From contig JAJYCJ010000007.1 of assembly GCA_021778515.1 (NCBI GenBank), forward strand, positions 10,498-58,142: a stretch of 47,645 nucleotides of DNA, given 5' to 3'. The notes below the pieces were generated by a model. That model saw only the letters and a list, made by a program, of their open reading frames with translations. It searched no databases and was not told where the DNA came from. Position 1 is the first letter of the stretch, and every line of letters starts with the position of its first letter. The stretch is from Acidobacteriota bacterium (lineage in GTDB: Bacteria; Acidobacteriota; UBA4820; DSQY01). Made by a program: the position numbers and the translations under genes. This document shows, piece after piece, positions 9,154 to 29,358 of this stretch.

Positions 9154-9180
9154 CGCACTCCTCCTGTTCCACGCGGTACC

Positions 9181-9690: not shown

Positions 9691-10461
9691 GTGATCGCAG
9701 GCCAGAATCTCGTGGTGGTCATGCCGGCCTACAACGCGGAGAAGACGCTCCGCCAGACGTACGACGACCTGCCGCACGAGATCATCGACGTGGTGGTGCT
9801 CGTGGACGATTACAGCAGCGACCGGACCACGGAGCTGGCCAAGGCGCTCGGGGCGACGGTGGTCCGCCACCCGGCGAACCGCGGCTACGGCGCCAATCAG
9901 AAGACCTGCTACGAGAAGGCGCTGGAGCTGGGGGCCGACATCGTCGTCATGGTGCATCCCGACTACCAGTACTCGCCCAAGCTCTGCGGCGCCATGGCCT
10001 GGATGGTGGCCTCGGGCGAGTACGACCTCGTCCTCGCCTCACGCATCCTCGGCGGCGGCGCCCTGCGGGGCGGCATGCCCCTCTGGCGATACGTCGCCAA
10101 CCGCGGCCTGACCTTCGCGGAGAACCTGCTGACGGGCCTCAAGCTCTCCGAGTACCACACGGGCTACCGGGCCTACTCCCGCCGGGTGCTGGAGACCATC
10201 CCCTTTGAAGCCAACTCGGACGATTTCGTCTTCGACAACCAGGTCATCGCCCAGACGGCCCTTATGGGCTTCCGCATCGGCGAAATCTCCTGCCCCACGC
10301 GGTACATGGACGAGGCCTCCTCCATCAATTTCCGCCGGAGCGTGGTCTACGGCTTCGGCGTCCTCGGCACCACCCTGCGCTTGCGCCTCGCCCGCATGGG
10401 CTGGCGCGGCGGCGGGCGCTGGCGGCGGAAGGGCGATGCCGGCGAGGGCGGAGCGTGTTGA
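9691..10461 (+). CDS. Glycosyltransferase family 2 (DPM/UDP-Glc:polyprenyl-P-like)
   Basis: GTG start; VVVMPAYNAEKTLRQTY...VVLVDDYSSDRT...ANRGYGANQKTCYEKALELGADIVVMVHPDYQY. The upstream part of ORF 9289 is repeat DNA. Confidence 0.85.
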   Translation: MIAGQNLVVVMPAYNAEKTLRQTYDDLPHEIIDVVVLVDDYSSDRTTELAKALGATVVRHPANRGYGANQKTCYEKALELGADIVVMVHPDYQYSPKLCGAMAWMVASGEYDLVLASRILGGGALRGGMPLWRYVANRGLTFAENLLTGLKLSEYHTGYRAYSRRVLETIPFEANSDDFVFDNQVIAQTALMGFRIGEISCPTRYMDEASSINFRRSVVYGFGVLGTTLRLRLARMGWRGGGRWRRKGDAGEGGAC

Positions 10462-11485: not shown

Positions 11486-13471
11486 ATGGCCAGCCTGGGC
11501 AAAGGGCCTGACCCCTCTCGAAGGCCGGCCGGGGCCGCACTGGTGGTCCTCCTGGGACTGGCCGTGGCGGCCGCCCTGCTCCTCTTCTGGCAGTATGCGT
11601 CGCACAGTCCGAAGTACACCGTGCTGCGCTCGGATGCGGGCGGGCGGTGGATACGGCTGCCCGAGCCGGCGAACCCCAATGCGAGGCCGGTGTTTCCCCG
11701 CATCGCCCACTTTCGGTGTCTCTTCGAGGCCGGGAAGGGCGAGGAGCACCTGGTGGTGCGGGTGGCGGCGCTGAGGCGCTGCCAGCTCTGGCTCAACGGC
11801 CGGCCCCTCCTGCCCCCCGGCGACGGCGCGCCGTGGTACCGCGGCTCGACCGTGGATCTTGCCCCCTTCCTGCATCCTGGAGCCAACGAGCTGGTGGCGG
11901 TGGTGGAGAACAGCACCGGGCCGCCGGTCTTTCGCCTGATCGGCGAGGGGGGCGGCGCATCGCTCTCCACGCCGGGGGAGTGGGGCGTCTCCATGAACGG
12001 GCGGGAGTGGGTCCGCCCGCAACTCGCGAGCGAGAAGCGGCCCTTCCCCGTGGCGCTCCAGTGTCCTTCGGCCTGGCGCGGACTGCTCGGCGGCTGGCCC
12101 TGGCTGGCCGGCCTCGCCGCCCTGGCCCTCGCGCTGGCGCTCGGGCTTCGAGCGGCCAGGAGCCGGGGAGGGGCGGCGGTGGAGGGGTGGCTGGCACCGT
12201 CTCGCCTTCGCTGGCTCCTGCTGGGGCTGTTCGCCGCCCTCTCTTTGAACAACCTCGTCCGGCTACCCCCTTGGATCGGCTTCGACGTGCCCGGGCACCT
12301 CAGCTACATCGCCTATCTGTTGCAGCACCACCGGCTTCCGCTGGCGACGGACGGCTGGCAGATGTTCGAATCGCCCCTCTTCTACCTTTTGGGGGCCCTC
12401 GTCGAGGTGGCGGCGCGCCTGGCGGCCTCTCCGAAAACGGCGGAAGGGCTGGTGCGCCTGATCTCCATGGCCTGTGGCGCCGGGATGATCGAGGTGTCCT
12501 ACCGCACGGGGCGGCTGCTCTTCCCCGACCGGCCCGCCCTTCAGAGGATCGCCACGGTGGCGGGCGGCCTGCTCCCCATGAACGTCTACATGAGCCAGTA
12601 CGTGGGCAACGAGCCCCTGGAGGGGCTTCTCGCGGCCTGGGCGCTGTTTTTGGGGCTGCGACTGCTGGTGAAGGAGGGGGAGCCTTCGCTCTCCGAGTGC
12701 CTCGCCCTGGGCGGCGTGCTGGGGCTGGCCCTGCTGGCCAAGGTGACGGCCCTCCTGCTGGTGGGGCCGCTGACCCTGCTGGTTGTCTGGTCGGTCCTCA
12801 CCCGCAAGGGATCTCTCCGCCGGGCCCTCGGGGCGGCCGGGGCGCTGTTGGCGTCCTGCGGGGCCGTCTCGGGCTGGTATTACCTGCGCAACTGGATCGA
12901 GCTGGGCCGGCCCTTCGTGGGCGGCTGGCAGGCCCGCCCCGGCCTCGCCTGGTGGCAGGACCCAGGCTACCGCATGGCGGGAGATCTCCTCCGGTTCGGG
13001 CATTCGCTCCAGCAGCCCGTATACGCCGTCGGGTACGGTTTCTGGGACGGCCTCTACTCCTCCCTCTGGCTCGACGGGGGCCTCGGCTCCGCCGCGGCCA
13101 GGCCCGACGGCCCTTTCTGGCAGCCCGACCTGCTGCCGGCCATGGCCCTCCTAGCGCTCCCCCTGAGTCTGTTGATCCTCTGGGGCGTCATGCGGACCCT
13201 CGGGACCGGCGAGACGCCCGCGCAAAGGGGCCTGCGCTTCCTGCTGGCGTGCGGCGTCCTCTACCTCGGCGCCATGATTACGCTTTACATCGAGGTCCCG
13301 GCCTACGCCGCCGCGAAGGCCAGCTACGCCCTGGCGCTGGCGCCGGCCCTGGGCGCGCTCGCCGCCTGCGGCGCCGAACCCCTCCTCAAGAAGGCGTGGC
13401 CGGCGACCCTGCTGAGTCTTTACCTCTTCGTGTGGGCGGGCGTCGTATACTGCACCTACTGGGCGCGCTAG
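11486..13471 (+). CDS. Multispanning GT-C-type membrane protein with N-terminal jelly-roll-like domain
   Basis: Starts directly after the upstream stop (TGAATG). N-terminal soluble region (LWLNGRPLLPPG...DLAPFLHPGANELVAVVENSTGPPVFRL) then many TM helices (GFDVPGHLSYIAYLLQHHRLPL...). Confidence 0.7.
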   Translation: MASLGKGPDPSRRPAGAALVVLLGLAVAAALLLFWQYASHSPKYTVLRSDAGGRWIRLPEPANPNARPVFPRIAHFRCLFEAGKGEEHLVVRVAALRRCQLWLNGRPLLPPGDGAPWYRGSTVDLAPFLHPGANELVAVVENSTGPPVFRLIGEGGGASLSTPGEWGVSMNGREWVRPQLASEKRPFPVALQCPSAWRGLLGGWPWLAGLAALALALALGLRAARSRGGAAVEGWLAPSRLRWLLLGLFAALSLNNLVRLPPWIGFDVPGHLSYIAYLLQHHRLPLATDGWQMFESPLFYLLGALVEVAARLAASPKTAEGLVRLISMACGAGMIEVSYRTGRLLFPDRPALQRIATVAGGLLPMNVYMSQYVGNEPLEGLLAAWALFLGLRLLVKEGEPSLSECLALGGVLGLALLAKVTALLLVGPLTLLVVWSVLTRKGSLRRALGAAGALLASCGAVSGWYYLRNWIELGRPFVGGWQARPGLAWWQDPGYRMAGDLLRFGHSLQQPVYAVGYGFWDGLYSSLWLDGGLGSAAARPDGPFWQPDLLPAMALLALPLSLLILWGVMRTLGTGETPAQRGLRFLLACGVLYLGAMITLYIEVPAYAAAKASYALALAPALGALAACGAEPLLKKAWPATLLSLYLFVWAGVVYCTYWAR

Positions 13472-13487: not shown

Positions 13488-15182
13488 ATGGACACGCCGG
13501 CCGAGGTCACCAGAGAGAACGGCCCGCCCGCGGGCCTCCCATCCAGGAAGCGCCTCTGGCTCGCCGCCCTGGCCCTCGCGCTGGTGACCTTCGCGCTCTT
13601 CTCGCCCCTGCTGGGGGCGCACTTCATCAATTACGACGACCAGGGCTACGTGACCGACAACCCCCACGTGCTCCATGGGCTGACCTGGGCGGACGTCCAC
13701 TGGGCCTGGACGCACCTCTACTTCGGTTTCTACTACCCGCTCACGCTCATGTCGCACCAGCTCGACTGCCAGCTCTACGGCCTCTGGGCAGGGGGGCACC
13801 ACCTGACCAATCTCTTGTTCCACATCGGCAGCGCTCTCTTGCTCTTCGCCTTCTTCTGGAAGACGACGCGCGCCTTCTGGCGGAGCCTGGCGGTGGCCCT
13901 GCTCTTCGCCATCCACCCCCTGCACGTGGAGTCGGTGGCGTGGATCTCGGAGCGGAAGGACGTGCTGAGCACCTTCTTCCTGATGGCCATGCTGGTGGCC
14001 TATGCGGACTATGCTCGGGCTCCTTCATTCAGGCGGTACCTCGCCGTGTTCGGTGCCTTTCTCCTGGGACTCCTGAGTAAGTCCATGATCGTGACGGCCC
14101 CATTCCTGCTTCTTCTTCTGGACTATTGGCCCCTGCGGCGCTTTTCCCTCGGAGGGCTGACGGTCGAAGCGCCCAGGGAGGAGGGAATCCCCTCTGCCGC
14201 GCCGCGGCTGGACCCGCGCCTGGGTTGGAGGCTCGTGGCCGAGAAACTGCCGCTTCTCGGACTGTCGGTGCTCTTTTCCGTGCTGACCTTCCTGGCGCAG
14301 AGTCATGCCGGGGCCATCGGTGGGCCACCCCTCCGATTCAGGGCCATCAACGCCATATCGTCTTACGGCGCTTACCTTAGCAAGGCATTGTTTCCGGTTA
14401 ACTTGGCGTTGTTTTATCCACTCCGCTTGGAGTCCATTCATTGGGAGCAGGGTGCTCTGGGAGGATTGCTCCTGATAGCCGTCTTTCTCTTCGGTTGGCT
14501 CCGGCGTCATAGCAATCCTTATCTCCTAGTCGGCTGGCTCTGGTATGTGGGGATGCTTGTCCCCGTCCTCGGCTTTATCCAGATTGGTAGCATGGCCATG
14601 GCGGATCGGTATACCTATGTCCCGCTTGTGGGGGTGTTTATCCTGCTAGCGTGGGGTGTACATGACATTTGGGAACACATCGAAGGCCCGAAAATAAGGG
14701 GGGCCTTGCTTGTTCTGTCTGGAATCTGGCTGCTGTTTCTGATGATCACGACCTACCGGCAGAGCCATTACTGGCACGATTCCTTAGCGATTTGGAGGCA
14801 TTCCCTTCTTGTCACTCAACACAATGATACAGCCAGCAATTCTTACGGTCGTGCTCTCATGAAAAGAGGCTACTATCGGGAGGCAGAGATCTATTTCAAG
14901 CAGGCCCTTGCGTGGAATCCAGCCCATTTCCCGGCGTGGGTGAATTTGTTTATGGTGGCTGACCTTCAGGGACAAAACCGCCTAGCTGAAGGGGCGCTCA
15001 AGGAGGCGGCTAGGCTTCGTCCCACAAACATCGCCGTACACTTAGATTTGGCGAAGTTCTATCAAAGGGCTGGGCACAAGGAAGAGGCTCGAAAAGAATG
15101 GTTAAGGGTTCTTGCATTGGATCCATCCAATCAGGTCGCCAGGCGTGCTTCGAGCAAGGCGCAGGCCCCAGAATCGGAATAG
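13488..15182 (+). CDS. TMTC-like membrane glycosyltransferase with C-terminal TPRs (paralogue 1)
   Basis: FINYDDQGYVTDNPHVLHGLTWADVHWAWT, HHLTNLLFHIGSALLLF, IHPLHVESVAWISERKDVLS, ADRYTYVPLVGVF; C-terminal TPR-like helices. Confidence 0.82.
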   Translation: MDTPAEVTRENGPPAGLPSRKRLWLAALALALVTFALFSPLLGAHFINYDDQGYVTDNPHVLHGLTWADVHWAWTHLYFGFYYPLTLMSHQLDCQLYGLWAGGHHLTNLLFHIGSALLLFAFFWKTTRAFWRSLAVALLFAIHPLHVESVAWISERKDVLSTFFLMAMLVAYADYARAPSFRRYLAVFGAFLLGLLSKSMIVTAPFLLLLLDYWPLRRFSLGGLTVEAPREEGIPSAAPRLDPRLGWRLVAEKLPLLGLSVLFSVLTFLAQSHAGAIGGPPLRFRAINAISSYGAYLSKALFPVNLALFYPLRLESIHWEQGALGGLLLIAVFLFGWLRRHSNPYLLVGWLWYVGMLVPVLGFIQIGSMAMADRYTYVPLVGVFILLAWGVHDIWEHIEGPKIRGALLVLSGIWLLFLMITTYRQSHYWHDSLAIWRHSLLVTQHNDTASNSYGRALMKRGYYREAEIYFKQALAWNPAHFPAWVNLFMVADLQGQNRLAEGALKEAARLRPTNIAVHLDLAKFYQRAGHKEEARKEWLRVLALDPSNQVARRASSKAQAPESE

Positions 15183-15245
15183 GGACGGCCAGCAAGCCGT
15201 GAATCTGGTGGGGAGGGAACATCGTCGTGGGCTCGATTGGATACA

Positions 15246-17282
15246 ATGGTAATCGAAATGGATCGTTCAGCCAAACGTAGAGTTCGCCAATCTTCCGGAG
15301 CGTTGCAAGGAACAGGCTGGGCACGCCGTCGCTGGCTTCTCGGCTCCATAGTCCTCGCGCTTGTTACCTTCGCGCTCTTCTCGCCCCTGCTGGGGGCGCA
15401 CTTCGTGGGCTACGACGACAACATGGTCGTGACGCGGAACCCGCTGGTGCAGAAGGGGCTCACGTGGGAGGGGGTCCGCTACTACTGGAGCCACATGGCG
15501 GGAGGGTTCTACGCCCCGCTGACCTATCTGTCGCACATGCTCGACTGCCAGCTCTTCGGGCTCTGGGCCGGCGGGCACCACCTGACCAATATCCTGCTGC
15601 ACATCGCGAGCACGCTGCTGCTCCTCCTCTTTCTGGTGAGGGTGACCGAAGCGCCGTGGCGGAGCCTTTTCGTGGCGGCGCTCTTTGCCCTCCATCCGCT
15701 CCACGTGGAGTCGGTGGCGTGGGTCGCCGAGCGCAAGGACGTGCTCTCGGCCCTCTTCTTCGTCCTGATGCTCCTGGCCTACCTGCACTACGTGCGCCGA
15801 CCGGGATGGGTTCGGTACGGCTGGGTCGTGGCGGCCCTGGTGATGGGCCTCTTGAGCAAGGCCATGCTGGTCACCGCGCCGTTCCTGCTCCTACTGCTCG
15901 ATTATTGGCCGTTGGGGCGCATGCCCGGCCCGCTGGCCGCGGGGCCCGAGGGATGGCCTGCGGCGGCGAGGGAGAACCCGGTCCGGAGCTGGACGATGCT
16001 GATCCTGGAGAAGCTGCCCCTGCTCGTCCTCTGCCTGTTCTTCAGTTGGCTCACGGCCCAGGACCAGCCGATCATCGGCTTCCACCGGATGCCGCTCACG
16101 TACCGGCTGATGAACTCCGCCATCGCCTACGGCCACTATACCTGGCTGACCTTCGTCCCCCACGGCCTGGCGGTCTTCTACCCGCTCGACTTCAAGACGA
16201 TCACGATCGGCAGGGCCCTGGCCTGGGGGCTGCCGGTGGCGGCGCTCACCCTCCTCGCCCTGGTTTCCTACCGGCGGAGACCCTATCTGGCGGTCGGCTG
16301 GCTCTGGTTCATCGGGATGCTCGTGCCGGTCATCGGGCTGGTCCAGATCGGCGCCCAGGCACGGGCCGACCGGTACACCTACCTGCCCTCCATCGGCCTC
16401 TTCATCGCCGTCGCCTGGGGTCTGGCGGAGGCGATCCCCGCCCGCCGGTGGGCGAGAGACGCGATCCTGGCCGCGGTGGCCTGCTGGCTCGTGGGCCTCG
16501 TGGCCCTCTCGGCCTTCCAGGTGACCACCTGGCACGACACCTACACCCTCTTCCGCCGGGACTACGCGGTGACCCACGACAACGCCAGGGCGGCGCGCTA
16601 CCTGGGACAGTACTACGCGGAGCGGGGCGAGCCGCACCGCGCCGCCGCCTACTACGAGGAGGCCCTGCGCATCGTCCCGACGCTGGACGTGGCGAGGCTG
16701 GAGCTGGCGGCCCTGTACGGGCGAATGGGCCAGATGCGAGAGGCCGCCGAGCTCCTGCTGAAGGGCATGGTGGTTTCGCCCCACGACACCGGCCTGGATG
16801 CGGCCTTTCTCGGCGCGTGCGGCCGCCTGCCGGATCCCGGCGAGCAGGCGGAACTCCTCGCCAAGGCCTGCCGCCTCCGCCCCGAGAGCACCTCCCTTCA
16901 CCTGGCCTGGGGCAGGAGCCTGCTGGCCGCGGGGCGGCTCGCAGAGGCCACGAAGGTTCTGCAAGAGGCCGCCGCGTCCCGGCCGAAGGAGCCGCAGGGC
17001 TGGTGCTACCTGGGCCACGCGCTCTTTGAGGGCGGACGCGAGCGCCCGGCGGCCGACGCCTTCGGGCGGGCCCTGACCCTCTCGCCGCGGGACCCGAGCG
17101 CCCTCGCGGGGCTGGCGTGGGTGCTGCTCAAGGCCCGCGATCCCGCGCTCAGGGACCCCGCGCGGGCCCTCCACCTCGCCCGGGAGGCCGTCCGCCTCAG
17201 CGGCGGCAGGGACCCATACGCCCAGACGGTCCTCTCGGCGGCAGAGGGGCGACCGACTCCGAAGGAGAAGGCCCATGGCTGA
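15246..17282 (+). CDS. TMTC-like membrane glycosyltransferase with TPRs (paralogue 2)
   Basis: FVGYDDNMVVTRNPLVQKGLTWEGVRYYW, HPLHVESVAWVAERKDVLSALF, ARADRYTYLPSIG; multiple C-terminal TPRs. Confidence 0.82.
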   Translation: MVIEMDRSAKRRVRQSSGALQGTGWARRRWLLGSIVLALVTFALFSPLLGAHFVGYDDNMVVTRNPLVQKGLTWEGVRYYWSHMAGGFYAPLTYLSHMLDCQLFGLWAGGHHLTNILLHIASTLLLLLFLVRVTEAPWRSLFVAALFALHPLHVESVAWVAERKDVLSALFFVLMLLAYLHYVRRPGWVRYGWVVAALVMGLLSKAMLVTAPFLLLLLDYWPLGRMPGPLAAGPEGWPAAARENPVRSWTMLILEKLPLLVLCLFFSWLTAQDQPIIGFHRMPLTYRLMNSAIAYGHYTWLTFVPHGLAVFYPLDFKTITIGRALAWGLPVAALTLLALVSYRRRPYLAVGWLWFIGMLVPVIGLVQIGAQARADRYTYLPSIGLFIAVAWGLAEAIPARRWARDAILAAVACWLVGLVALSAFQVTTWHDTYTLFRRDYAVTHDNARAARYLGQYYAERGEPHRAAAYYEEALRIVPTLDVARLELAALYGRMGQMREAAELLLKGMVVSPHDTGLDAAFLGACGRLPDPGEQAELLAKACRLRPESTSLHLAWGRSLLAAGRLAEATKVLQEAAASRPKEPQGWCYLGHALFEGGRERPAADAFGRALTLSPRDPSALAGLAWVLLKARDPALRDPARALHLAREAVRLSGGRDPYAQTVLSAAEGRPTPKEKAHG

Positions 17283-19134
17283 AGGCGCGGTGAAGCGTGA
17301 AACCACGCCCCGCTGGTGGGGCTGGTTCATGGCGGCCGGAGCGGCGGCGGCACTCGGCCTAGCCTGCTGTGCGCTCTTCCTGTCGCCCTTCGACATGGAC
17401 GAATTCGAGTTCGCCAGGGCCTCCTCCTTCGTGGCGGAAGGCCGGCTACCCTACGCGGGGTTCTGGGAGCACCACACGCCGCTGCTCTGGCTGGTGGCGG
17501 CACCCGTGGCGGGACCGGCCCTCAGCGCCGATCCCGTCCTTGGTCTGACGGTCTTGCGGGGACTCGCGGCCCTCTTCTGGCTCGCCACCGCTTGGATCGG
17601 GCTCGCCTGGTTGCGGAGGAGGGGCGTGCCCTGGCTCGTGGGAGGCCTGGCGCTGGCGCTCCTCTTCGCGCAGGACACCTTCCTCCGCACCGTGGTCCAG
17701 TTTCGCGTGGACTCGCTGATGGTCCTCCTGGTTCTTGGCGGCCTCGTGGCCTGCGACGTGGGATGCGAGACCGGATCAGCCCGCTGGCTGGGGCTCTCGG
17801 GGCTCTGCCTGGCCCTGGCCTGCCTGGCCTCGCAGAGGGCCCTCTTCTTCGCCGTGGCGGCGGTTCTGTGGGCCGTGGCGGCGGCCCTCTGGAAGCGCCA
17901 GGCGCCCTGGCGCTTCGCCCTTCCCCTGGCCGGCGCGGGAGCGGCGGTGGCGGCGGGGGTCACGGCGCTTCTTCTCGCCACGGGGACCTTCGGCCTCTTC
18001 TGGCGCGACGTGGTGACCCTCAACTGGTTGTACGAGAAGGCGGAGGGGGCGTATGGAGGGCTGAGGATCTGGTGGCCCGTCCTGCTGGAGCCGCTCCGCC
18101 AGGGATCCCCGGGGGCGCTACTCTTCTGGGGCGCCCTCCTGGCCTCTCTGGTGGCGGCCTTTCTGCCCGCGAGGCTGCGCGGGCCCCTGATCCGGCCCCT
18201 CTCGCTTGTCTGGCTCGGATGCGCGATCGCATCCAGCCTCGTGGCGGCCACCTTCGGCTACCAGTTCCTCGCGCTCTGGTGGCTCGGCGGACTGCTCGTG
18301 GCCCTGGCGGTGAGCCGGTGGGCCCTGATGAGGCAGGCCCTGGAGCGGCCGCTGGGGGCGGGCGTGGCGCTCCTGGTGGTGCTCGCCTGCCTGGGCGTGG
18401 CAGCGGCCGGACAGCCCTGGAAAGAGTGGGGGACGACCCGGGACCGCCAGGTCTGGCTCCTGGAGGAGGTCGCGGCCCGAACGAGCCCGGGCGAGGTGGT
18501 CTGGGAGGGCAGCGGCTGCGCCTTCGGAAGAAAGCCCGCCTCCACCTATTGGTTCACGCCCACTCTGGTGACCGCACTGGAAAAGCGGGGCCTTCTCTCG
18601 GCCTTCGCCCCGGCGAGGCTCAGGGCCCAACCGCCCTCCCTGGTGCTCATGGACGGCCGCTTCTCGCCCGCCCTGGACGCGGCGCCCGCTGAGGTCCGGG
18701 CCTTCCTGTACGCCCACTACCTGCCGGTCACGCGCCGCCTGGACCTGTGGGCGCCCGCCGCCGTGAAGCTTCTCGAACCGTCCTCGCCGCCCGTGGAATT
18801 CGCCCCTCTCCTGCCGGGACACTACCGGCTGGCCGTTCTCCCCCTGGAGCCCGACGAAGCCCTTTGGTTCGCTTCCGGGCTCCTGGACGGAATCGGCTCG
18901 GCGAGGCCCGTCCCTTCGCTCCCGGCGCCCCCGGGCCTCGTGCTCGCGACTTCGGCCAAGGCCGGGGCGAACGAGGGAGGGGCCCCCGCGTACGACTTCC
19001 GGCGGGGCGATTGGGTGCGTGCCTCCTGGCTCGGCAGCCACCCCGCGATCCTTCTGCTGGTGCCGACGGGGTATGACTCCGTCTATGTCCCCGTGTGGGG
19101 CGCCGAGGCGAAAGGGAGCAATGGCCCACCCTAG
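17275..19134 (+). CDS. GT39/ArnT-like membrane glycosyltransferase
   Basis: SPFDMDEFEFARASSFVAEGRLPYAGFWEHHTPLLWLVAAP (acidic loop-1 motif plus multiple TMs). Start overlaps the previous stop. Confidence 0.75.
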   Translation: MAEGAVKRETTPRWWGWFMAAGAAAALGLACCALFLSPFDMDEFEFARASSFVAEGRLPYAGFWEHHTPLLWLVAAPVAGPALSADPVLGLTVLRGLAALFWLATAWIGLAWLRRRGVPWLVGGLALALLFAQDTFLRTVVQFRVDSLMVLLVLGGLVACDVGCETGSARWLGLSGLCLALACLASQRALFFAVAAVLWAVAAALWKRQAPWRFALPLAGAGAAVAAGVTALLLATGTFGLFWRDVVTLNWLYEKAEGAYGGLRIWWPVLLEPLRQGSPGALLFWGALLASLVAAFLPARLRGPLIRPLSLVWLGCAIASSLVAATFGYQFLALWWLGGLLVALAVSRWALMRQALERPLGAGVALLVVLACLGVAAAGQPWKEWGTTRDRQVWLLEEVAARTSPGEVVWEGSGCAFGRKPASTYWFTPTLVTALEKRGLLSAFAPARLRAQPPSLVLMDGRFSPALDAAPAEVRAFLYAHYLPVTRRLDLWAPAAVKLLEPSSPPVEFAPLLPGHYRLAVLPLEPDEALWFASGLLDGIGSARPVPSLPAPPGLVLATSAKAGANEGGAPAYDFRRGDWVRASWLGSHPAILLLVPTGYDSVYVPVWGAEAKGSNGPP

Positions 19135-19136
19135 CC

Positions 19137-19260
19137 TGTCATTGCGAGGGCTCCTCGCAAAGGGCAGCCAGCGAAGCAATCCCGGCCCTGCATGACCGGC
19201 CCTAAGCCGGTGGTTTTCCATCCATGGGGCTGCCGCGGCCCTTCGGGCCTCGCAGTGACG
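19137..19260. repeat. ~124-bp TIR element (MITE-like), copy 4
   Basis: TGTCATTGCGAGG ... CCTCGCAGTGACG; high identity to the reverse complement of copies at 319, 673 and 2062. Confidence 0.85.
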
Positions 19261-19495
19261 GTAACGGGAGAGTCGTCCGCCATCCGCCGCGATGGGCTTT
19301 TGCTCCTCACTCCTCACTGCCCACTGTCCTTCCAGGGAGTCCTGAGTCCCGCCCTTCACCCACTGCCGGCGCGATCCTGGACGCGCTTCGCTGGCCAGTA
19401 TGACCGCAGGAAAAAGCGCCATCGCCCCACGGAGTACAATGGCGGTGGGGCGATCCCGGGTCGCCCGGCCCTGCGACGGGAGGTGAGAGGCGGCC

Positions 19496-21094
19496 ATGAG
19501 CTCAGGAGGACAGGACGCGGTCGCGGTGGCGGGCGCGCCGCGGCGGAGGCTCTCGGGCTGGATCGGCGGCGTCCTCCTTGCCCTGGTCGTGGGCGCGGTG
19601 CTCCTCAGCCTGATCAGCCCCGTCTTCAACCCGCCCAAGTGGGACGAGTGCATCGTCGACTACGACGCCCGCCGTGTGGCGGCGGGGGAGGTGCCCTACC
19701 GGGATTTCTTCAACTTCACCCCGCCGGGCGTTTTCCTGTGGCTGGCGCCGATCGTGGGTGCGGGGGGCGACCATCCGCTGACGCGGGGGCGTTACGCGAG
19801 CCTCGTGCTGATCCTCCTCTCCTGGTGGCTGGCCGCCCTGCTTCTGAAGCGCAGCGGCTGGAGCGCCCGCAACGCCTGGCTGCTGGCCGCCCTCTACCCC
19901 GTGGCCCTCTACGCCTTCTGGCCCATTCCCTCCCACCAGTGGCTCGCCAACGCCTTCCTGATCGGCGCGTGGGCGCTCCTCTGCAAGCCGGGCGGCCTCG
20001 GCACCCGAGGCTGGGCGGCGGAGGGGCTTCTCGCGGGGTTGGCGGCCTTCACCCTCCAGCCCCAGGGAGTCCTGGCCCTCCTCTCGGCGGGCATCCTGTG
20101 GGCCCTGGAGCCCGAGGCCAGGGTGCGCAAGGGGGCGGCCTTCGCGGCGGGCTTTTCGCTCCTCTGGCTTCCCTTCCTCGGCGCGATGGCCTGGCTGGGC
20201 GGCCTTGGGGCCTTCTGGCGCGACGTGGTGCGCTGGCCCATGCACAACTACAGCCGCCTGGGCAACGAGAACGCCCACTTCCCCTTTCAGGACGTGCCCT
20301 GGCGCCTGGGGGACCTGTGGAGCCACTGGCTCCAGAGGCCCAGCGTGGGCCAGGCGGTGACGAGCCTGGCCGGGTTCCTTCTCTACGGCATCCTCCTGGC
20401 GGCCTTCGCCGCCCTCGTCGCGTGGGCCTTCGCCCGGTTCGCGGCATGGCTCCGCCGGCACCGCATGGGGAGCCCCTGGGAAGCCGCGGCCGTCGCCGTG
20501 ACCTTCCTCGCGCTGGGGCTTTTGTTGAGGGGCAACGCGAACTGGCTGCACCTGGTCTTCGCCCTCGGTCCCCTCGGCCTGCTCTGGCTGGCGTGGATCG
20601 GGCGGGAGGGGCCTTCGCCCAGGGCGCGCGGGGCGGTCGCCGCCGCCGCGGTCGTGCTCCTGGCGGCCGGGGCGGCCTATGCGCTGAGGGGGTGGTGGTT
20701 CTACAGGCCCGCGGCCTGGGAGTTCACGGACGCCGACCGGACCCTGCGGGAATCGCCCATCAACCGGTACCTGCGGGCACCCGGCGTCCTGCACCCGGGG
20801 GACACGCTGGTGGCCCTCCCCGAGGGCGGGGAGGTTTACCTCTACACGGCTCCCGCCGCCATCGGCTACACCTACTTCCAGCCGCTCGACAGGCACTACA
20901 ACGACCTGCGCGACCACGAGATCGCGGCGGCGCAGATGACCAAGGAGCGGCCGCGATTCGTGCTGATGCCCGAGGCCCTGGAGAAGGACTATCTGGATCC
21001 GCGCTCCCCCGTGGCGGCTCTCCTTCGGCGCGAATACGTTCGCGCGGGCGAAGTGGGTTCGGCAGTTCTTTACCAGCGGAGGGAGGGACCATGA
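19496..21094 (+). CDS. GT39/ArnT-like membrane glycosyltransferase
   Basis: FNPPKWDECIVDYDARRVAAGEVPYRDFFNFTPPGVFLWLAP and many TM segments. Confidence 0.75.
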   Translation: MSSGGQDAVAVAGAPRRRLSGWIGGVLLALVVGAVLLSLISPVFNPPKWDECIVDYDARRVAAGEVPYRDFFNFTPPGVFLWLAPIVGAGGDHPLTRGRYASLVLILLSWWLAALLLKRSGWSARNAWLLAALYPVALYAFWPIPSHQWLANAFLIGAWALLCKPGGLGTRGWAAEGLLAGLAAFTLQPQGVLALLSAGILWALEPEARVRKGAAFAAGFSLLWLPFLGAMAWLGGLGAFWRDVVRWPMHNYSRLGNENAHFPFQDVPWRLGDLWSHWLQRPSVGQAVTSLAGFLLYGILLAAFAALVAWAFARFAAWLRRHRMGSPWEAAAVAVTFLALGLLLRGNANWLHLVFALGPLGLLWLAWIGREGPSPRARGAVAAAAVVLLAAGAAYALRGWWFYRPAAWEFTDADRTLRESPINRYLRAPGVLHPGDTLVALPEGGEVYLYTAPAAIGYTYFQPLDRHYNDLRDHEIAAAQMTKERPRFVLMPEALEKDYLDPRSPVAALLRREYVRAGEVGSAVLYQRREGP

Positions 21095-21257
21095 AGGGCG
21101 TCGGGGTCGCTTTGGGAACGGCTGGCTTCCGCGGGCGGCGATTCGTACACCGGCAGCGCGGTGGTTGTGGGAGCGATTGTCCGATCGCGAAGGGTGGAAG
21201 CGAATGGATGTCGGCCTTTGGAGGGCCCTCTTGCAACCATAGGCGAGGAGCTGAGGC

Positions 21258-23384
21258 ATGAGGGAGTGGTCGTGGGGCCGCTGGAGGGAGGCGGGATGGC
21301 TCGCGTTCATCCTCCTGCTGACGCTCGCCGCTTACGGTCAGGTGGTCCGCTTCCCCTTCACCGGCTACGACGACGCCTACTACGTCGGTCCCGATACGGC
21401 CATGAGCCACGGCCTCTCCTGGGCAAACCTCCGCTACGCCTTCACGCATCTGCACTTCCATCTCTACTATCCTCTTACGCTTCTTTCCCACATGTTCGAT
21501 TGCCAGCTCTACGGCCAATGGGCGGGCGGCCATCACCTCACTAACCTGATCCTGCACCTCATCTGTATCGTCCTCGTTTATCTCTTGTTCCGCTTGGCAA
21601 CGAATGAGCCGGGACGGAGTGCCGCCGTGGCGGCCCTCTTCGCTCTCCACCCGCTGCACGTGGAGGCCGTGGTCTGGATCGCCGAGCGCAAGGAGCTGCT
21701 CTGCACGCTCTTCACCCTGCTGGCTCTTCTGGCCTACGGCGCGTACGCGCGCCGACGGAGACCGGGAGGGTACTTGGCTGTGAGCCTCCTCTTCGTGTGC
21801 GCCCTCTTGGCTAAGCCGATGGCCGTGACTCTTCCGGTGGTGTTCTTGCTGGCGGATGTCTGGCCCCTGGAACGCCGGAAGTGGGGAGGCGCGGGGAACG
21901 GTGCATCCCAAGTGGCTCGCTCCCCATGGGCTTCCCACTGGACGTCGGTTTGGCCGCTTCTGAAGGAGAAGCTCCCGTGGTTCGGGGTGAGCCTCGCCTT
22001 TTCCGTCTTAACCGTGGTGGCCAACCGCGAAGGCGGCGCTCTCACGTCGCTTGCGGCTCTGCCTCTGCCTTGGCGGATCGGCAATGCCTGTGATGCTTAC
22101 GGCCAGTATCTGGCTAAGACCTTTGTGCCGGCGGGGCTTTCCGTCTATTACCCTTACCCCGGCAGTGTACCGTGGGGTTTGGCGGCCATTTCGGCGCTCC
22201 TGCTGATCCTCCTGCTCTGGCTGGGGGTCCGGTTGCGAGCGCGGGCCCCTTACCTGCTCATCGGCACCCTGTTCTTCGTGGTGACCCTCCTGCCCGTCAT
22301 CGGGCTCCTCCAGGTGGGCTCCCTCCAGGCCTACGCCGACCGGTATACCTATTTCACTCTGTTGGGCCCCTTCGCCGCCCTCGTTTGGGGTATATCCGAC
22401 GGGGCGGAGCATTTTCACCTCAACCCTTCGTGGCTGAAGGGCGCCTTCATGGCGCTGCTGCTCCTTCTGACCGTTATTACCTGGTACCAAGTGCGGAACT
22501 GGCGGAGCGACGAGGAGCTCTTCGGGCGATCGCTGGCCCTCTACCCGAAGGGCAACTATGTGGCCTGGGCCGTGCTAGGCCATACTTACATGGAGAAGGA
22601 CCAGCTCACCCTGGCGCAGAAGGCCCTCGAAAATGCGGTGGCGATCGCGCCGGGTATCGGCTACACGAGGGTGAATTTGGGCGACGTCCTGGTGCGGGAG
22701 GGGGAGTACGGTCCAGCCGAGGCCTGTTATCGCGAGGCCCTCCACATCGGCGGCGCCAGTGAGAGTCTAGCTCTCTATGGATTAGGGCGGCTCTTGGCCG
22801 TGGAGCACCGCTCCGCTGAAGCCGTGCCCTATCTGCGGAGGGCCTGGGAGCGTCAGCCCTACATGGTGGAGGCGCCCATCACGCTGGCGAGCGCCCTGCG
22901 GAACGGCGGTCAACCGGAGCAGGCCCTAGCGGTTCTTCGCAAAGCGGAAGTCCTCTTTTCCGGGGACTGGCTGGTGCAGGCCAATCTGGGCCTCACGCTG
23001 GAGGTGCTCGGCCGCCCGGAGCAGGCCCTGGCGGTCTTCGACCGAGCCCTTCACCTGGGTGGCCCTGCCGTGTGGCGGGAGGTGGCGGCTCTGATGCTGG
23101 CGCCTCCTGGCATTCCTAGGCCCATTGCCGAGAAGGCGCTCACCGTGGTGGAAAGCGTGATTCGGGCCGAGCCGGGAAGCTGGCCGGCTTTCTCCACCCT
23201 CGCCGCCGCATGGTGCGCACTGCGACAGCGCGAGGAAGCGATAAAGGCCCAAGCTCAGGCGGAGCGGCTCGCGATGGTCCAGGGAGGGAAGGCGGCCCAG
23301 CAGGCTGCCTCCCGCTTGGCCCCGCCCTGTTTGAAGGCGCGGGGAACACCACCCCCCGCTGCGGTCCCGGGCGCGAATCCCTAG
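21258..23384 (+). CDS. TMTC-like membrane glycosyltransferase with TPRs (paralogue 3)
   Basis: FTGYDDAYYVGPDTAMSHGLSWANLRYAFTHLHFHLYYPLTLLSHMFDCQLYG, HPLHVEAVVWIAERKELLCTLF, YADRYTYFTLLGPF; C-terminal TPRs. Confidence 0.83.
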   Translation: MREWSWGRWREAGWLAFILLLTLAAYGQVVRFPFTGYDDAYYVGPDTAMSHGLSWANLRYAFTHLHFHLYYPLTLLSHMFDCQLYGQWAGGHHLTNLILHLICIVLVYLLFRLATNEPGRSAAVAALFALHPLHVEAVVWIAERKELLCTLFTLLALLAYGAYARRRRPGGYLAVSLLFVCALLAKPMAVTLPVVFLLADVWPLERRKWGGAGNGASQVARSPWASHWTSVWPLLKEKLPWFGVSLAFSVLTVVANREGGALTSLAALPLPWRIGNACDAYGQYLAKTFVPAGLSVYYPYPGSVPWGLAAISALLLILLLWLGVRLRARAPYLLIGTLFFVVTLLPVIGLLQVGSLQAYADRYTYFTLLGPFAALVWGISDGAEHFHLNPSWLKGAFMALLLLLTVITWYQVRNWRSDEELFGRSLALYPKGNYVAWAVLGHTYMEKDQLTLAQKALENAVAIAPGIGYTRVNLGDVLVREGEYGPAEACYREALHIGGASESLALYGLGRLLAVEHRSAEAVPYLRRAWERQPYMVEAPITLASALRNGGQPEQALAVLRKAEVLFSGDWLVQANLGLTLEVLGRPEQALAVFDRALHLGGPAVWREVAALMLAPPGIPRPIAEKALTVVESVIRAEPGSWPAFSTLAAAWCALRQREEAIKAQAQAERLAMVQGGKAAQQAASRLAPPCLKARGTPPPAAVPGANP

Positions 23385-23450
23385 CGGCCGCGTTCACCTC
23401 TACCGGTTGCCGCGAGCCCGAGTCTGCACAGTGCTGCGGGTTCAGCGTAG

Positions 23451-23456
23451 TATAAT
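23451..23456 (+). promoter_or_regulatory. Possible -10 element (TATAAT) upstream of paralogue 4
   Basis: TATAAT in a GC-rich context; no convincing -35. Confidence 0.35.
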
Positions 23457-23517
23457 AAAGGCGTTGGCCTCCAGCGGGATAGGCGCCTGCCGGAAGAAAC
23501 GACCTTGGGAGGGGTGA

Positions 23518-25713
23518 GTGGTGAGCGTTCCCCAACGGTGGCGCAGAATTCCCCGCGAGGGGTGGATGGCCCTTTCACTGGTCGCGATGACCGCGGCGGC
23601 CTACTTCTACGTGGTCCACTGCGGCTTCGTCAATTATGACGACCCGGCTTATGTGACCGCTAACCCGGTGGTCCAGGCGGGGCTGACCTGGAGGGGGTTC
23701 CTTTACGCCTTCACCCACACGCCGTTATACCTCTATACACCGCTCACGCTCCTCTCCCACATGCTGGATTGCCAGCTCTTCGGGATGAACCCCGGCGGCG
23801 CCCACGCTATGAGCCTGCTCTACCACCTCATCAGCACACTTCTGCTCTTTTGGGCCCTCACCAAGATGACGAAGGAGCCCTGGCCGAGCTGGGCGGTGGC
23901 GGCCCTCTTTGGCCTCCACCCCATGCACGTGGAGGCCGTGGCCTGGATCGCCGAGCGCAAGGAGGTGCTCTCCACGCTCTTCGGCCTGCTGGCGCTTCTG
24001 GCGTACGCCTACTACGTCGAGAGCCGGAGCAGGCGAGCCTACTGGACGATTTTCGTCTGCCTCCTCCTGAGCCTGCTCGCCAAGCCCATGCTCGTGACCC
24101 TGCCCTTTCTTCTCCTGCTGCTGGACCTCTGGCCGCTGGGGCGGTTGGACCCCTTCGAGCCGTGGCCGCCCCGTGAAGAGGGCAAGGTCCCGCCGTGGCC
24201 CTATCGGCTGAAGCCAGGTTGGCTGCGCCAGATCTGGCCCCTCGTTCGCGAAAAGATCCCCCTCTTTCTGCTGGTCTTCGGCTTCAGCGTGGGGACCTAC
24301 CTGACCAATGCGCTCGGCGGATCTTTGCCGAGCACGAGGGCCTTTCCCATCGGCCTGCGCCTGGAGACGGTTCTTTACGCCTACGGGCAATACATCGCCA
24401 AGCTCTTCTTTCCCGTGGGGCTCAGCTTTTTCTACCCCGTCACACTTCTCGGCCTGACGGTGGTAAGCGTCCTCCCGCCGCTCCTCTTGCTGATGGCCGT
24501 CACCCTGCTCGCTCTGCGCCTGGCGCAGAGGGCTCCGTTCCTGCTCGTGGGCTGGCTGTGGTTCCTCGGTACGCTGGTGCCCGTCATCGGCCTCATCCGC
24601 GTGGGCTCCCCGCAGGCCTATGCCGATCGCTACACCTACTTCACCTACACGGGGCTCTTCGTCATTCTCGTCTGGACCGTCTACCGATGGGTGAAAGGGA
24701 GGGGGCTGGGAACCCGCATCGCCCTCTATCTGTTCTGCGGCTTGCTTCTCACCCTGGGGCTCCAGACGGCCTTTCAGGTCACGGTCTGGAGGGACAGCGA
24801 ATCGCTCTTCACCCATTCGCTCGAGGTAGCTCCCAAGGGCAATTACGTGGCCATGGGCGGGCTGGGCATGGTCTATTACGACAAGTACAAGAACATCGAG
24901 GGGGCCAAGACCCTGCTCAAGAAGGCCATTTCCCTGGGCCCCGTCTACCCCAATTGGTACAACCTGGGTGGCATCCTCGTGCGGGAGGGGGAATTCAAGG
25001 AGGGCGAGGCCTGCCTGCGCCAGGCCCTGGCCGCGAGCCAATGGAAGGATCAGAAGGCGAACGCGCTCTCCGCCCTGGCCTACGCCTGCGTGAGGCAGGC
25101 CCAGTACGCGCAAGCCCTGGAGTTCTCCAGGCGCGCCCTGACCCTCGCACCCGGCCAGGAGAGTGCCATCGAGAGCGAGGCCGAGGCTTTGCTGGGGCTC
25201 GGCCGGTGCCGCGAGGCGGAGCAGGTGGCCCGGGCCGGTCTGGCCGAACATTCCAAGAGCAGCGGGATCGCCGTCCGCTTGGCGGTGGCCCTCCTCGGGC
25301 AGGGGCAAGCCCAGGAGGGGGCGCCCTACATGGAGCGGGCACTAAAGATGCGCCGCGGCAACCCCGCGCTCTTCTTCGAGGCGGCTACCGATCTGCTCCT
25401 GATCCCTCACCCCGCCCCTGTCGTCCGCCAGGAGGCGCTCAGCATGGCCCTGCGGGCGGTCCGGGCTGCGCACGGCGGTCAGCCCTGGTACCTGCTCGTC
25501 TATGGCCAGGCGCTGGCGGCCAACGGGCAGAAGCTAGAGGCTCAACAGGTGCTGGAAGACTGCCTCGCCAAGGCCAAGGCGAAGGATATCAAGGGGCTGG
25601 AGCGGATGGCCCGGCGGGCGCTGGACGGCCTGGCCTCCACTGGGGCCGTGGTGCCGGCTGAGGCGGTGATGAGTGGAGAGGCCAGAGGTGAGACGCCAAG
25701 CGCTAGACGCTAG
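23518..25713 (+). CDS. TMTC-like membrane glycosyltransferase with TPRs (paralogue 4)
   Basis: FVNYDDPAYVTANPVVQAGLTWRGFLYAFTHTPLYLYTPLTLLSHMLDCQLFG, HPMHVEAVAWIAERKEVLSTLF, YADRYTYFTYTGLF; C-terminal TPRs. Confidence 0.83.
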   Translation: MVSVPQRWRRIPREGWMALSLVAMTAAAYFYVVHCGFVNYDDPAYVTANPVVQAGLTWRGFLYAFTHTPLYLYTPLTLLSHMLDCQLFGMNPGGAHAMSLLYHLISTLLLFWALTKMTKEPWPSWAVAALFGLHPMHVEAVAWIAERKEVLSTLFGLLALLAYAYYVESRSRRAYWTIFVCLLLSLLAKPMLVTLPFLLLLLDLWPLGRLDPFEPWPPREEGKVPPWPYRLKPGWLRQIWPLVREKIPLFLLVFGFSVGTYLTNALGGSLPSTRAFPIGLRLETVLYAYGQYIAKLFFPVGLSFFYPVTLLGLTVVSVLPPLLLLMAVTLLALRLAQRAPFLLVGWLWFLGTLVPVIGLIRVGSPQAYADRYTYFTYTGLFVILVWTVYRWVKGRGLGTRIALYLFCGLLLTLGLQTAFQVTVWRDSESLFTHSLEVAPKGNYVAMGGLGMVYYDKYKNIEGAKTLLKKAISLGPVYPNWYNLGGILVREGEFKEGEACLRQALAASQWKDQKANALSALAYACVRQAQYAQALEFSRRALTLAPGQESAIESEAEALLGLGRCREAEQVARAGLAEHSKSSGIAVRLAVALLGQGQAQEGAPYMERALKMRRGNPALFFEAATDLLLIPHPAPVVRQEALSMALRAVRAAHGGQPWYLLVYGQALAANGQKLEAQQVLEDCLAKAKAKDIKGLERMARRALDGLASTGAVVPAEAVMSGEARGETPSARR

Positions 25714-25836: not shown

Positions 25837-25878
25837 ACAAGAAAAGGCCCCGGTCAGGTCACCGGGGCCCTTTCTTGT
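25837..25878. terminator. Bidirectional intrinsic terminator between the convergent TMTC-like and pilin genes
   Basis: ACAAGAAAAGGCCCCGGT-CAGGTC-ACCGGGGCCCTTTCTTGT, 18-bp stem with one mismatch and A/T flanks. Confidence 0.85.
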
Positions 25879-25902: not shown

Positions 25903-26388
25903 TCACTGGCAGGTGTGCTGCGGGCCGTTGGGTAGGACCGCAAAGGTATCGCCCTGCCAGGCGATATCGCACTCGAAGCACGTGGTGGAGACTACCGTGG
26001 AGTAGTTGGCGGTGCCATATACACCGGGCCAAAGGTCCGGTGAACCGTCCTTCCCAAGGGAGGCTACGTCAAATTGGTTCGAGGTGCCGGAATACTGGTA
26101 CGCCACGTTCCAGGGATCGGGGTTGGGAACCACCTTGATGTAATCGGGGGTCAACAAGGATCCAGCGCCACCACTGAGCGCGCCCGCAGTCTGGGTGGGA
26201 TACTGGTTCGTGTCCGTAGCGTAGGACTGCACGGCCGTGGCGATGGAGCGGACCTCGCTCATGGCCCTCTTCTGCTTGGCGCGCTGGATGGCGGAGAGCA
26301 GGTTGGGGATGGCGATGGCGGCAATGATGCCGATGATCGCCACGACGATGAGGAGCTCGATCAGCGTAAAACCTTTCTGTTTCTTCAT
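25903..26388 (-). CDS. Type IV pilin / GspG-like pseudopilin
   Basis: MKKQKGFTLIELLIVVAIIGIIAAIAIPNLLSAIQRAKQKRAMSEVRSI (class III prepilin signal); GspG-like NPDPWNVAYQYSG...SLGKDGSPDL; C-terminal Cys residues. SD AGGAGGTG before the ATG. Confidence 0.92.
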   Translation of the reverse strand: MKKQKGFTLIELLIVVAIIGIIAAIAIPNLLSAIQRAKQKRAMSEVRSIATAVQSYATDTNQYPTQTAGALSGGAGSLLTPDYIKVVPNPDPWNVAYQYSGTSNQFDVASLGKDGSPDLWPGVYGTANYSTVVSTTCFECDIAWQGDTFAVLPNGPQHTCQ

Positions 26389-26414
26389 GCACACCTCCTG
26401 TGAGCCCAGTGTAA

Positions 26415-26765: not shown

Positions 26766-28967
26766 TCACCCGGCGCCTGCCCCTCGGGCGAGGGAGGCAC
26801 CTCCCGAAGATTCTCGGAGCCGCCTGTTGAACCACGCGGTGAGGAGGAGGCCGAGCAAGGCCAGCAGGCCACCGTTGAGCAGCCCCTTCAGCCAGCCTGG
26901 ATCGAAGCGGATGGCGAGGTTGCGGGCCGGTTTGGACAGCTCCACCTGGATTCGGCCCCACTGGTCGGGATGGCAGGGGACGGCTTGGCCGTCGGCCGTG
27001 GCGTGCATCTGGCGGTACCAGAGAAAGTTGACCGTCACCGGGCCGGGCCCCATGCCGTTGAGGGCCACGTTGATGCCACGGCTAGGGAAGCGGATTGGCA
27101 GGGAGTGGCCGGGATCGCCCGTGGGGAAGGCCAGCGGGTCTGCGCCTTTGAGCGTCCAGACGTCGTCGGGGGAGGCGACGGTATGCGAGGCCACGTCAAG
27201 CCTGGGCAGGTACAAGAGGACCGGCCGCAGGGCCGAGATGCCCTCCATCCCCCGCTCGACTGGGTTGGGCGAGAAGAGGGGGTGAACGGCCGCCTCGTTG
27301 AGCACGAGGTAGCGCACGCCGTAGGCCTTGAGGGCGGCGGGGGTGTCCTGCCGGAGCCTGTCGTAAGCAAGGCGGAAGGGAGGCAGGGATTGGACCAGCG
27401 GGTCGTAGCCGAAGAAGGAGTAGAGGCCGTAGACGACAGGAAGGCCGTGCATCATCGAGAGGCCGTAGCCGGGCAGGAGGGAGCGCATGGGGGCGATGGG
27501 GATGAGGCGCCCCTGGGGCGGCGAACCGGCGTCCAGGGCCTTGGCGAGAGGCGGGGGCAACGCCGGATAGGGCTTAAAGCCATAGGAGTAAAAGGCCGGC
27601 CGGGCGATGGAGGCGTGATAGAGCAGGAGCGAACAGCCGAGCAGTCCCACCGCCAGGGGCGCCCACCGGCGCGGGGTCAGCGGCCTGAGGAGGCGGTCCA
27701 GAACCGCCCCTCCCGCCAGGGCCACGAAGAGGACCATGAAGGGCAGGGCCCGGAAGGGGTTGTTGTTCACGAGAGAGAGGAAGGGCAGGTGGCTCAGGAT
27801 CTGCCAGAGCCCTCCCTGTTCGCCCAAGGCCAGCAGGAAGGCTACCACGGCTAGAAAGAACCAGAGCCGCCGCTGACCCCAGTCCCGCCTCCAGCGCGAG
27901 GTGAGCCACGCCACCAGACCCAGCACGAAGGTGACGGCCAGAATGGTCCCGAAGTAGTAGAACTCGCTCATGTAGCGAAGATCGGTGCTGCCCCAGAAGT
28001 TGGGATGGGGGCAGTGGACCAGCGGGGCCGGGAGGAAGAGTGCCGCGAGGCCCGGTAGGATGCCGCGGCCGTAAGAGGGCGGGCGCACCATGTTGCGGGC
28101 GAAGCTCATCTGGCACCAGAGCAGGGGCGCCGCCAGGGCCGCTGCCCAGGTCAGGGCCGGCAGGCTCCAAAGGGCCCGGCGCCAGGTGATCTCCTCCCAG
28201 AGCACGAGCCAGAGCACCCCCAGGCCGAAGAAGAGCGCTGCGTAAGCCCACTCCTGAGGAAATCCCACCTGGTAGTAGACGCCGAGGACGAGCCCCGTCA
28301 CGAGGGCCCAGCGCCAGCCGATGGGCTTCTCCTTCAGCCAGAGCAGGCAGAGGGCGATGGCCGGTCCCGCCACCACCGTGGGAAGGATCATGTGCCAGCA
28401 CCGGCCCATGATGAGCACACCGCCCGAGAGGACGAGAGCCAGCGACGCGAGCGTGGCGGCCATGGGAGAGAGGCGCAGGCGGCGCGCCAGCCACCACATC
28501 AGGAGGAAGCCCGCCAGCAGGTGCAGGGCCGCGAAGACCTCCAGCAGGGCGTACTCGTCGTGCAGGCCGTATCGGGCGATGGCGTAGGCGAGCCAAGTGG
28601 GGGGGTAGGTCAGAGAGCCCCCGCCGGAGGAGGCCACGGGGCCGCCCAAAAGGCAGTTTGGACTGTAGTCGGGGAACTCGCCCCGCCACAGCGCCCGGCA
28701 ACCATAGAGCATGCCCGGCAGCTCCGTCACCAGCGCGTCGTCCTGCGTAAAGTAATAGGGCTGGTTGACCTCCAGGATGGTGAAGGCCAGGCCAAGTACC
28801 ACGAGGCCCAGCGCGAGCCAGCCCCAGGGACGCTTCGATGCCTGATCTTCTTCCGGCGGGGGTTCCAGCAGGCCGCCGAACCACCGGTCCACGCCCGGCC
28901 AGCGCCGCCTCGCAACCCACGCCGCCAGGCACAGGAGCATAAAGGAAACGAGCCACATCATGAGCAA
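26766..28967 (-). CDS. Large multispanning membrane protein, YfhO-like
   Basis: 733 aa with ~12 hydrophobic segments; GEFPDYSPNCLLGGPVASSGGGSLTYPPTWLAY and PFRALPFMVLFVALAGG resemble YfhO-family proteins. Confidence 0.65.
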   Translation of the reverse strand: MLMMWLVSFMLLCLAAWVARRRWPGVDRWFGGLLEPPPEEDQASKRPWGWLALGLVVLGLAFTILEVNQPYYFTQDDALVTELPGMLYGCRALWRGEFPDYSPNCLLGGPVASSGGGSLTYPPTWLAYAIARYGLHDEYALLEVFAALHLLAGFLLMWWLARRLRLSPMAATLASLALVLSGGVLIMGRCWHMILPTVVAGPAIALCLLWLKEKPIGWRWALVTGLVLGVYYQVGFPQEWAYAALFFGLGVLWLVLWEEITWRRALWSLPALTWAAALAAPLLWCQMSFARNMVRPPSYGRGILPGLAALFLPAPLVHCPHPNFWGSTDLRYMSEFYYFGTILAVTFVLGLVAWLTSRWRRDWGQRRLWFFLAVVAFLLALGEQGGLWQILSHLPFLSLVNNNPFRALPFMVLFVALAGGAVLDRLLRPLTPRRWAPLAVGLLGCSLLLYHASIARPAFYSYGFKPYPALPPPLAKALDAGSPPQGRLIPIAPMRSLLPGYGLSMMHGLPVVYGLYSFFGYDPLVQSLPPFRLAYDRLRQDTPAALKAYGVRYLVLNEAAVHPLFSPNPVERGMEGISALRPVLLYLPRLDVASHTVASPDDVWTLKGADPLAFPTGDPGHSLPIRFPSRGINVALNGMGPGPVTVNFLWYRQMHATADGQAVPCHPDQWGRIQVELSKPARNLAIRFDPGWLKGLLNGGLLALLGLLLTAWFNRRLRESSGGASLARGAGAG

Positions 28968-29275: not shown

Positions 29276-29358
29276 GGCGGGCGCCCCCGCCCGCCGCTTC
29301 GAAGGCCATCGTTCACCGGCCGATCAGCGATCGGCCGCTGCATGGGCCACCCCTAGCC

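Follow-up and report, generated by a model that had tools for sequence, protein, structure and literature searches.

The array and its genes

The DNA considered here (the window) is a stretch of 47,645 nucleotides with 65% G+C, from contig JAJYCJ010000007.1 of an Acidobacteriota bacterium whose genome of 3.34 Mb is 97% complete. Between positions 13488 and 25713 its plus strand carries four genes, designated T1-T4, for proteins of 564, 681, 708 and 731 residues that join a membrane domain of the glycosyltransferase C (GT-C) type to C-terminal tetratricopeptide repeats (TPRs). They are accompanied by genes for GT39-like membrane proteins: g2 lies upstream of T1, and X1 and X2 lie between T2 and T3. 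As argued below, this cluster is a real, conserved, multi-enzyme GT-C set. T1-T4 belong to a widespread bacterial family, here called the T family, which is uncharacterised.

Judged by their sequences, T1-T4 are true paralogues, since pairwise BLASTP comparison (35-47% identity, E values of 1e-75 to 1e-127) excludes chance; the same similarity rules out an origin as chance or shadow open reading frames (ORFs). A preliminary description of this DNA had recognised four paralogues in one array by their shared motifs, and ORFs, motifs and BLASTP bear it out: the first-loop motifs NYDDQGYV, GYDDNMVV, GYDDAYYV and NYDDPAYV are exactly as it gave them, HPxHVExVxW(I/V)(S/A)ERK(D/E)xL and ADRYTY are present in all four proteins, and so are Pfam matches to TPRs at the C-terminal end. 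A search of the whole genome for further full-length T copies found none, other matches being confined to TPRs. Both of the trees that were calculated make T1 the sister of T2 (support 95 and 99/96), and T3 pairs with T4 in the quick tree (99), a pairing that the careful tree leaves unresolved. From the GT2 gene at the head of the cluster to T4, all genes lie on one strand and the gaps are mostly short, or overlaps, the longest within the array (361 bases) preceding X2. This, with the hairpin that follows T4, suggests a single transcription unit; by chance, about one terminator-like hairpin would turn up in a stretch as long as the one that was scanned.

Table 1. Genes and other features of the cluster and its surroundings (positions in the window)
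Feature	Position	Strand	Residues	Remarks
GT2 like polyprenyl-phosphate-sugar synthases (PpgS, dolichyl-phosphate-hexose transferase, AglJ)	9700..10461	+		start uncertain, frame open from 9289
Methyltransferase (Methyltransf_23)	10475..11485	+		start approximate; Pfam 1.6e-26
g2, GT39/PMT_2-like GT-C membrane protein	11486..13471	+	661	PMT_2 29.7 bits (cut-off 26.1)
T1, GT-C + TPR	13488..15182	+	564	AlphaFold2 model; Foldseek matches to TPR proteins and Stt3; motifs
T2, GT-C + TPR	15237..17282	+	681	45% identity to T1, its sister in both trees; listed ORF begins with TTG, ATG starts a few codons further in
X1, GT39-like membrane protein	17275..19134	+	619	loop-1 D/E motif FDMDEFEFAR; start overlaps T2 end by 8 bases
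X2, GT39-like membrane protein	19496..21094	+	532	loop-1 DE motif KWDECIVDYDARR
T3, GT-C + TPR	21258..23384	+	708	PMT_2 28.8 bits, exceeds cut-off; fold matches GT-C
T4, GT-C + TPR	23518..25713	+	731	GTG start; 40% identity to T3; orthologues in two genera
Terminator-like hairpin between T4 and pilin gene	25846..25869	+		9-pair stem, T-rich tail
Type IV pilin/GspG-like gene	25903..26390	-		convergent with array; N_methyl 4.9e-11, T2SSG 5.3e-14
Large membrane protein	26766..28967	-	733	weak Pfam match to PTPS_related (GT-C clan), 5e-4, below cut-off; 88% identity in sister genome
Second GT2, C-terminal transmembrane helices, ArnC/PgfS type (undecaprenyl-phosphate-sugar synthase-like)	39692..40624	+
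Protein with two GtrA/DPMS-type membrane domains	44857..45804	+		PF04138 1.3e-36, two stretches

Fold and membrane topology

The AlphaFold2 model of T1, made with 66 relatives, has a mean pLDDT of 91.8 and a pTM of 0.92. Foldseek with full-length T1 is swamped by TPR proteins (Stt3 is also found), and comparison of the full-length profile with the sequences of solved structures gave only TPR proteins among the 60 matches listed. The membrane domain of T3 was therefore modelled alone (pLDDT 91.1, pTM 0.92). When this domain is compared with the PDB, ranks 1-29 are all GT-C enzymes (Stt3, AglB, PglB, ArnT, Pmt1/2/4, AftD, Emb proteins and DPY19 among them) and unrelated proteins follow only after these; the best match is yeast Stt3 (8age, E 2.8e-4). 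The TM-scores, 0.34-0.54 over the query, are moderate, as is to be expected of a separate family. Models and structural search together bear out the GT-C fold, and a different fold, which would have spoken against the preliminary description, was looked for in the same search and did not emerge.

From its secondary structure, the T3 model has eleven membrane helices and a further helix between transmembrane helices TM7 and TM8, which would lie along the membrane in the manner described for TMTCs (PMC7801869). In the T1 and T3 models the Asp-Asp (DD) pair sits between TM1 and TM2. Lysine and arginine make up 9 of the 53 predicted cytoplasmic loop residues of T3 and 5 of its 123 external ones; the corresponding figures for T1 are 11 of 71 and 6 of 120. 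Since these charges obey the positive-inside rule if the N-terminus is cytoplasmic, loop 1 with its DD pair and the C-terminal TPRs are predicted to be periplasmic, in accord with the external position that had been proposed for the pair.

Relation to TMTCs and to other GT-C enzymes

Comparison of 67 relatives from several phyla finds D50, D51, H90, D93, H143, P144, R156, K198 and R374 (T1 numbering) invariant in every one. All of these but H90 and D93, which are absent from TMTCs, correspond to TMTC motifs M1, M3, M4-Lys and M7 among the seven tabulated for the human proteins (PMC7801869). The T family has M1 (DD) and M3 (RxD/E), and it also keeps the M4 lysine and both the arginine and the tyrosine of M7. 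Three of the seven motifs are incomplete or missing: M2 is without its HKSY part, M4 (KE) without its glutamate and M5 without its DW, and NWHP or YP, K(P/S) and FYP stand in their places. Pfam TMTC_DUF1736 (PF08409) has no match in the genome even at an E value of 10. That domain is found in 21 of 149 Acidobacteriota genomes, in GT-C proteins whose motifs resemble those of TMTCs and which, where they were read far enough, have TPR-like repeats; such true DUF1736 proteins (loci L140-L154) would be better bacterial models of the human TMTCs.

The T family and these bacterial DUF1736 proteins are collinear over their full length (hhalign probability 100%, E 4e-45, 372 columns). In a tree of bacterial sequences the T family nevertheless stands apart from the DUF1736 proteins, as a clade with a long stem that is supported at 100/100. 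What it shares with TMTC1-4 (family GT105) and bacterial DUF1736 proteins is an N-terminal GT-C domain of 11 helices with DD in loop 1, the C-terminal TPRs, HPxHxE..R.D/E in the second external loop, a lysine in the third and R..Y ahead of TM10. It differs from them, beyond what has already been mentioned, in that HKSY/YRP is changed to W(H/Y)PLT and ER to DR. The resemblance to TMTCs that had been seen in the sequence thus holds as homology and as layout, but not as membership: on this comparison T1-T4 are a family related to TMTCs yet distinct from them. They probably work like TMTCs, but depart from these at two points by which TMTCs are defined. (Full-length bacterial homologues of TMTCs as such were already stated to exist in 2021; PMC7801869.)

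PMT/GT39 proteins, ArnT (GT83) and other PMT_2 proteins share the fold and the acidic pair in loop 1, and 34 of the 67 T-family members match PMT_2; the T family differs from them in having a TPR domain and no MIR domain, and overall similarity is low. Stt3, PglB and AglB (GT66), to which the closest structural match of the T3 domain belongs, have 13 helices rather than 11 and a WWDYG C-terminal domain where the T family has TPRs; the T-family donor, moreover, is likely to be a monosaccharide.

The GT39-like neighbours

The preliminary description had placed two GT39-like proteins between the second and third paralogues. Two membrane proteins are indeed encoded there, but the second is not the longer ORF listed at that place, and a third GT39-like protein, g2, directly upstream of the array, had been left out. 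The longer ORF, at 19192-21261, is a shadow frame: the frame of X2 has a G+C content at third codon positions of 0.92 and is kept at 87% identity in a sister genome (57% in a genome of another genus). The corresponding figures are 91% and 50% for X1, whose position is kept, and 84% and 51% for g2.

To call X1 and X2 "GT39-like" is fair, but the label is a soft one. Neither X1 alone against Pfam nor X2 alone against Pfam PMT_2 gives a match, X1 and the joint X1/X2 profile retrieve nothing useful from the solved structures, and X1 and X2 are only weakly similar to each other (E 0.02). In their alignment, on the other hand, 8 of 25 members match PMT_2, and between the joint profile and the T-family profile there is a weak match in the region of loop 1 (hhalign E 1.1e-3, probability 20%). 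Their loop-1 motifs were read by eye.

Conservation of the cluster and distribution of the family

The two genomes just referred to are a sister genome in the same genus (L135) and one from another genus of the same family (L136). The order in the first is Wzc, a gene for 157 residues, GT2, g2, T1, T2, X1, X2 and T4, with T3 absent; in the second it is GT2, g2, T2, X1, X2, a T4-like gene and T3. A common order GT2 - GT-C - T - X1 - X2 - T is thus kept within the genus and beyond it, and by this synteny the multi-enzyme cluster is conserved. Orthologues or close relatives of all four T genes occur in other genomes, so the duplications predate the genus. (Between X2 and T4, in place of T3, L135 has a coiled-coil-like open frame with repeats at 6316-6888.)

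The T family occurs in Acidobacteriota, Planctomycetota, Verrucomicrobiota and Thermodesulfobacteriota. Copy number was sampled in 78 loci fetched out of 329 confirmed relatives; the loci were cut at 10 kb to each side, so that the counts are lower bounds. One member was found in 52 loci, two in 14, three in 6, four in 3, five in 1 and six, the maximum, in 2. Four copies within about 12 kb had been taken to suggest a dedicated system; with at least two copies in 26 of the 78 loci, arrays are not unusual, and one of four, though larger than average, is no exception in this family. In contigs of Planctomycetota (L047, L029) five to six T-family genes form an array, and at another locus a frame of 2643 codons (L037:1983-9911) lies directly upstream of a T-family gene and touches it. 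Elsewhere, T-family genes have GT2s, PMT_2 proteins and methyltransferases as neighbours. A literature search on TPR glycosyltransferases of planctomycetes found nothing.

Surrounding genes

The first GT2 (Pfam Glycos_transf_2, 1e-19) has the same place in the sister genome, at 95.6% identity, and is present in part in L136. Its best NCBIfam match is PpgS, a polyprenyl-phospho-GalNAc synthase (1.8e-18), followed by DPhHxTase and AglJ; the second GT2 scores 3e-57 with PgfS and 5e-36 with ArnC. The protein with two GtrA-type domains is a candidate polyprenyl-phosphate-sugar flippase.

Genes for Wza and Wzc lie directly upstream of the cluster. Downstream, past two genes on the opposite strand, comes a large sugar-nucleotide operon (29993-47423); it has genes for an RfbF-like nucleotidyltransferase, a thiamine pyrophosphate-dependent enzyme, NeuB-like, FkbM and radical SAM proteins, and an RfbH dehydrase that scores above its NCBIfam cut-off. 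By sequence this set resembles a pathway for a branched CDP-deoxysugar, possibly of the yersiniose type. Intergenic stretches at 2332-9486 and 29053-29301 hold 12 copies of the palindromic repeat GGGCGGCCAGRGACGGCCGCCCGTACGGGG; the gene of an IS200-like transposase (Y1_Tnp, 5505-6053) sits among them, and repeats and gene look like a REP/RAYT system.

A proposed periplasmic glycosylation module and its acceptor

Paralogy, fold, conservation of the active-site motifs and a conserved cluster have been demonstrated for T1-T4. The reading of these genes that we prefer, with a probability of roughly 0.55, is that T1-T4, g2, X1 and X2 form a periplasmic glycosylation module that depends on polyprenyl-phosphate sugars and probably acts on proteins; it is best placed within an exopolysaccharide locus. 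Each T protein would present its catalytic Asp-Asp in the first periplasmic loop of an eleven-helix membrane domain, and its TPRs as a periplasmic superhelix. Sugar would be loaded on to polyprenyl phosphate in the cytoplasm by a GT2, be it the one at the head of the cluster, the ArnC/PgfS-like one further down or both, and the GtrA-like protein may help the product across the membrane. T1-T4 with g2, X1 and X2 would then transfer single sugars from this donor, each with an acceptor or linkage specificity of its own, and the TPRs would serve to choose the acceptor or to act as its scaffold. Proteins that are secreted or exposed at the surface are the most likely acceptors.

The donor type is suggested by the PpgS-like GT2 at the head of the cluster, the ArnC/PgfS-like GT2 and the double GtrA protein nearby. 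A protein acceptor is favoured, at modest odds, because of the TPRs and the precedent of the TMTCs. Two known systems that combine comparable parts diverge on precisely this point. In the Streptococcus Pgf locus (PgfS-PgfM1-PgfE-PgfM2), a PgfS/ArnC-type GT2 and several PMT_2-type membrane proteins glycosylate an adhesin (PMC5856776), but TPR-bearing GT-Cs are absent. Mycobacterial PpgS pairs with the GT-C protein Rv3779, which is of another family, and the acceptor is arabinogalactan (PMC3485146). Protein and glycan acceptors are therefore both possible, and, although a dedicated multi-enzyme glycosylation system for proteins or lipids had been proposed and the conserved cluster agrees with it, sequence cannot tell a protein from a lipid or glycan acceptor. 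Several observations count against the module as we prefer to read it. The metal/phosphate ligands proposed for TMTCs, the Glu of KE and the Asp of DW, are Pro/Ser and Phe in the T family, so that the donor chemistry could differ; the scores of both GT2s with their NCBIfam matches fall short of the equivalog cut-offs; and Wza, Wzc and the sugar-nucleotide genes fit a polysaccharide locus equally well.

The last point is the strength of a competing explanation to which we attach a smaller, though still appreciable, likelihood: that T1-T4, g2, X1 and X2 add side-branch sugars in the periplasm to a lipid-linked glycan or an exopolysaccharide before its Wza/Wzc export, as GT-Cs of the Gtr, Emb, ArnT and Rv3779 type do. 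The genes on either side of the cluster, the neighbours of T-family genes elsewhere and the PpgS/Rv3779 precedent are all consistent with such an acceptor, and seven GT-C-like genes would suit many linkages in one polymer. What tells against it is that TMTC1-4, which are the GT-C enzymes known to carry TPRs, modify proteins (PMC7801869) and that TPRs usually bind proteins; the downstream operon, past its two opposite-strand genes, may also be a separate unit.

Among proteins, the type IV pilin encoded beside T4 comes to mind, since its gene is only 190 bases away and also adjoins the array in the sister genome; in Thermodesulfobacteriota (L009, L048), pilin-like genes lie within about 250 bases of a single T-family gene. 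An array dedicated to this pilin is nevertheless unlikely. The pilin gene is convergent with the array, other homologues of the same pilin are encoded elsewhere in the genome, and in the sampled loci, with their 115 neighbour genes, the 25 most frequent families do not include pilin domains, so that as a general partner of the T family a pilin is ruled out over the neighbours of the 78 loci. We regard it as a candidate acceptor but make no claim that it is the target. That T1-T4 might after all be true bacterial TMTCs, that is GT105 O-mannosyltransferases, is suggested by the full-length homology with DUF1736 proteins and by the like architecture and helix count, but the absent domain, the altered M2, M4 and M5 and the separate clade in the tree of bacterial sequences make it very improbable. 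Least probable of all is that T1-T4 have lost catalysis and serve as GT-C-like scaffolds or bind lipids: replacement of the two proposed ligands would fit it, but the invariance of DD, R and K in 67 of 67 sequences argues for retained catalysis.

Meaning for the family

A broader proposal, which we regard as rather doubtful, makes the T family a separate and widespread GT-C + TPR family in which donor binding has changed, H90 and D93 of loop 1 having replaced the KE and DW ligands of TMTCs, and its arrays a means of general protein glycosylation in which the TPRs give each paralogue its own acceptors. If that were true, labour would be divided among the paralogues of a bacterial array much as it is among TMTC1-4. 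Surprise at the present cluster is limited (moderate to low), because the T family is abundant and bacterial TMTC homologues are already in the literature. Should the module be what we take it to be, enzymes of the TMTC type, with GT-C domain and TPRs, would not be confined to eukaryotes but would have a large uncharacterised sister family in bacteria. The conserved clusters would then point to the likely donor synthase, and they would offer a small set of bacterial enzymes for testing what the TPRs contribute to the choice of acceptor.

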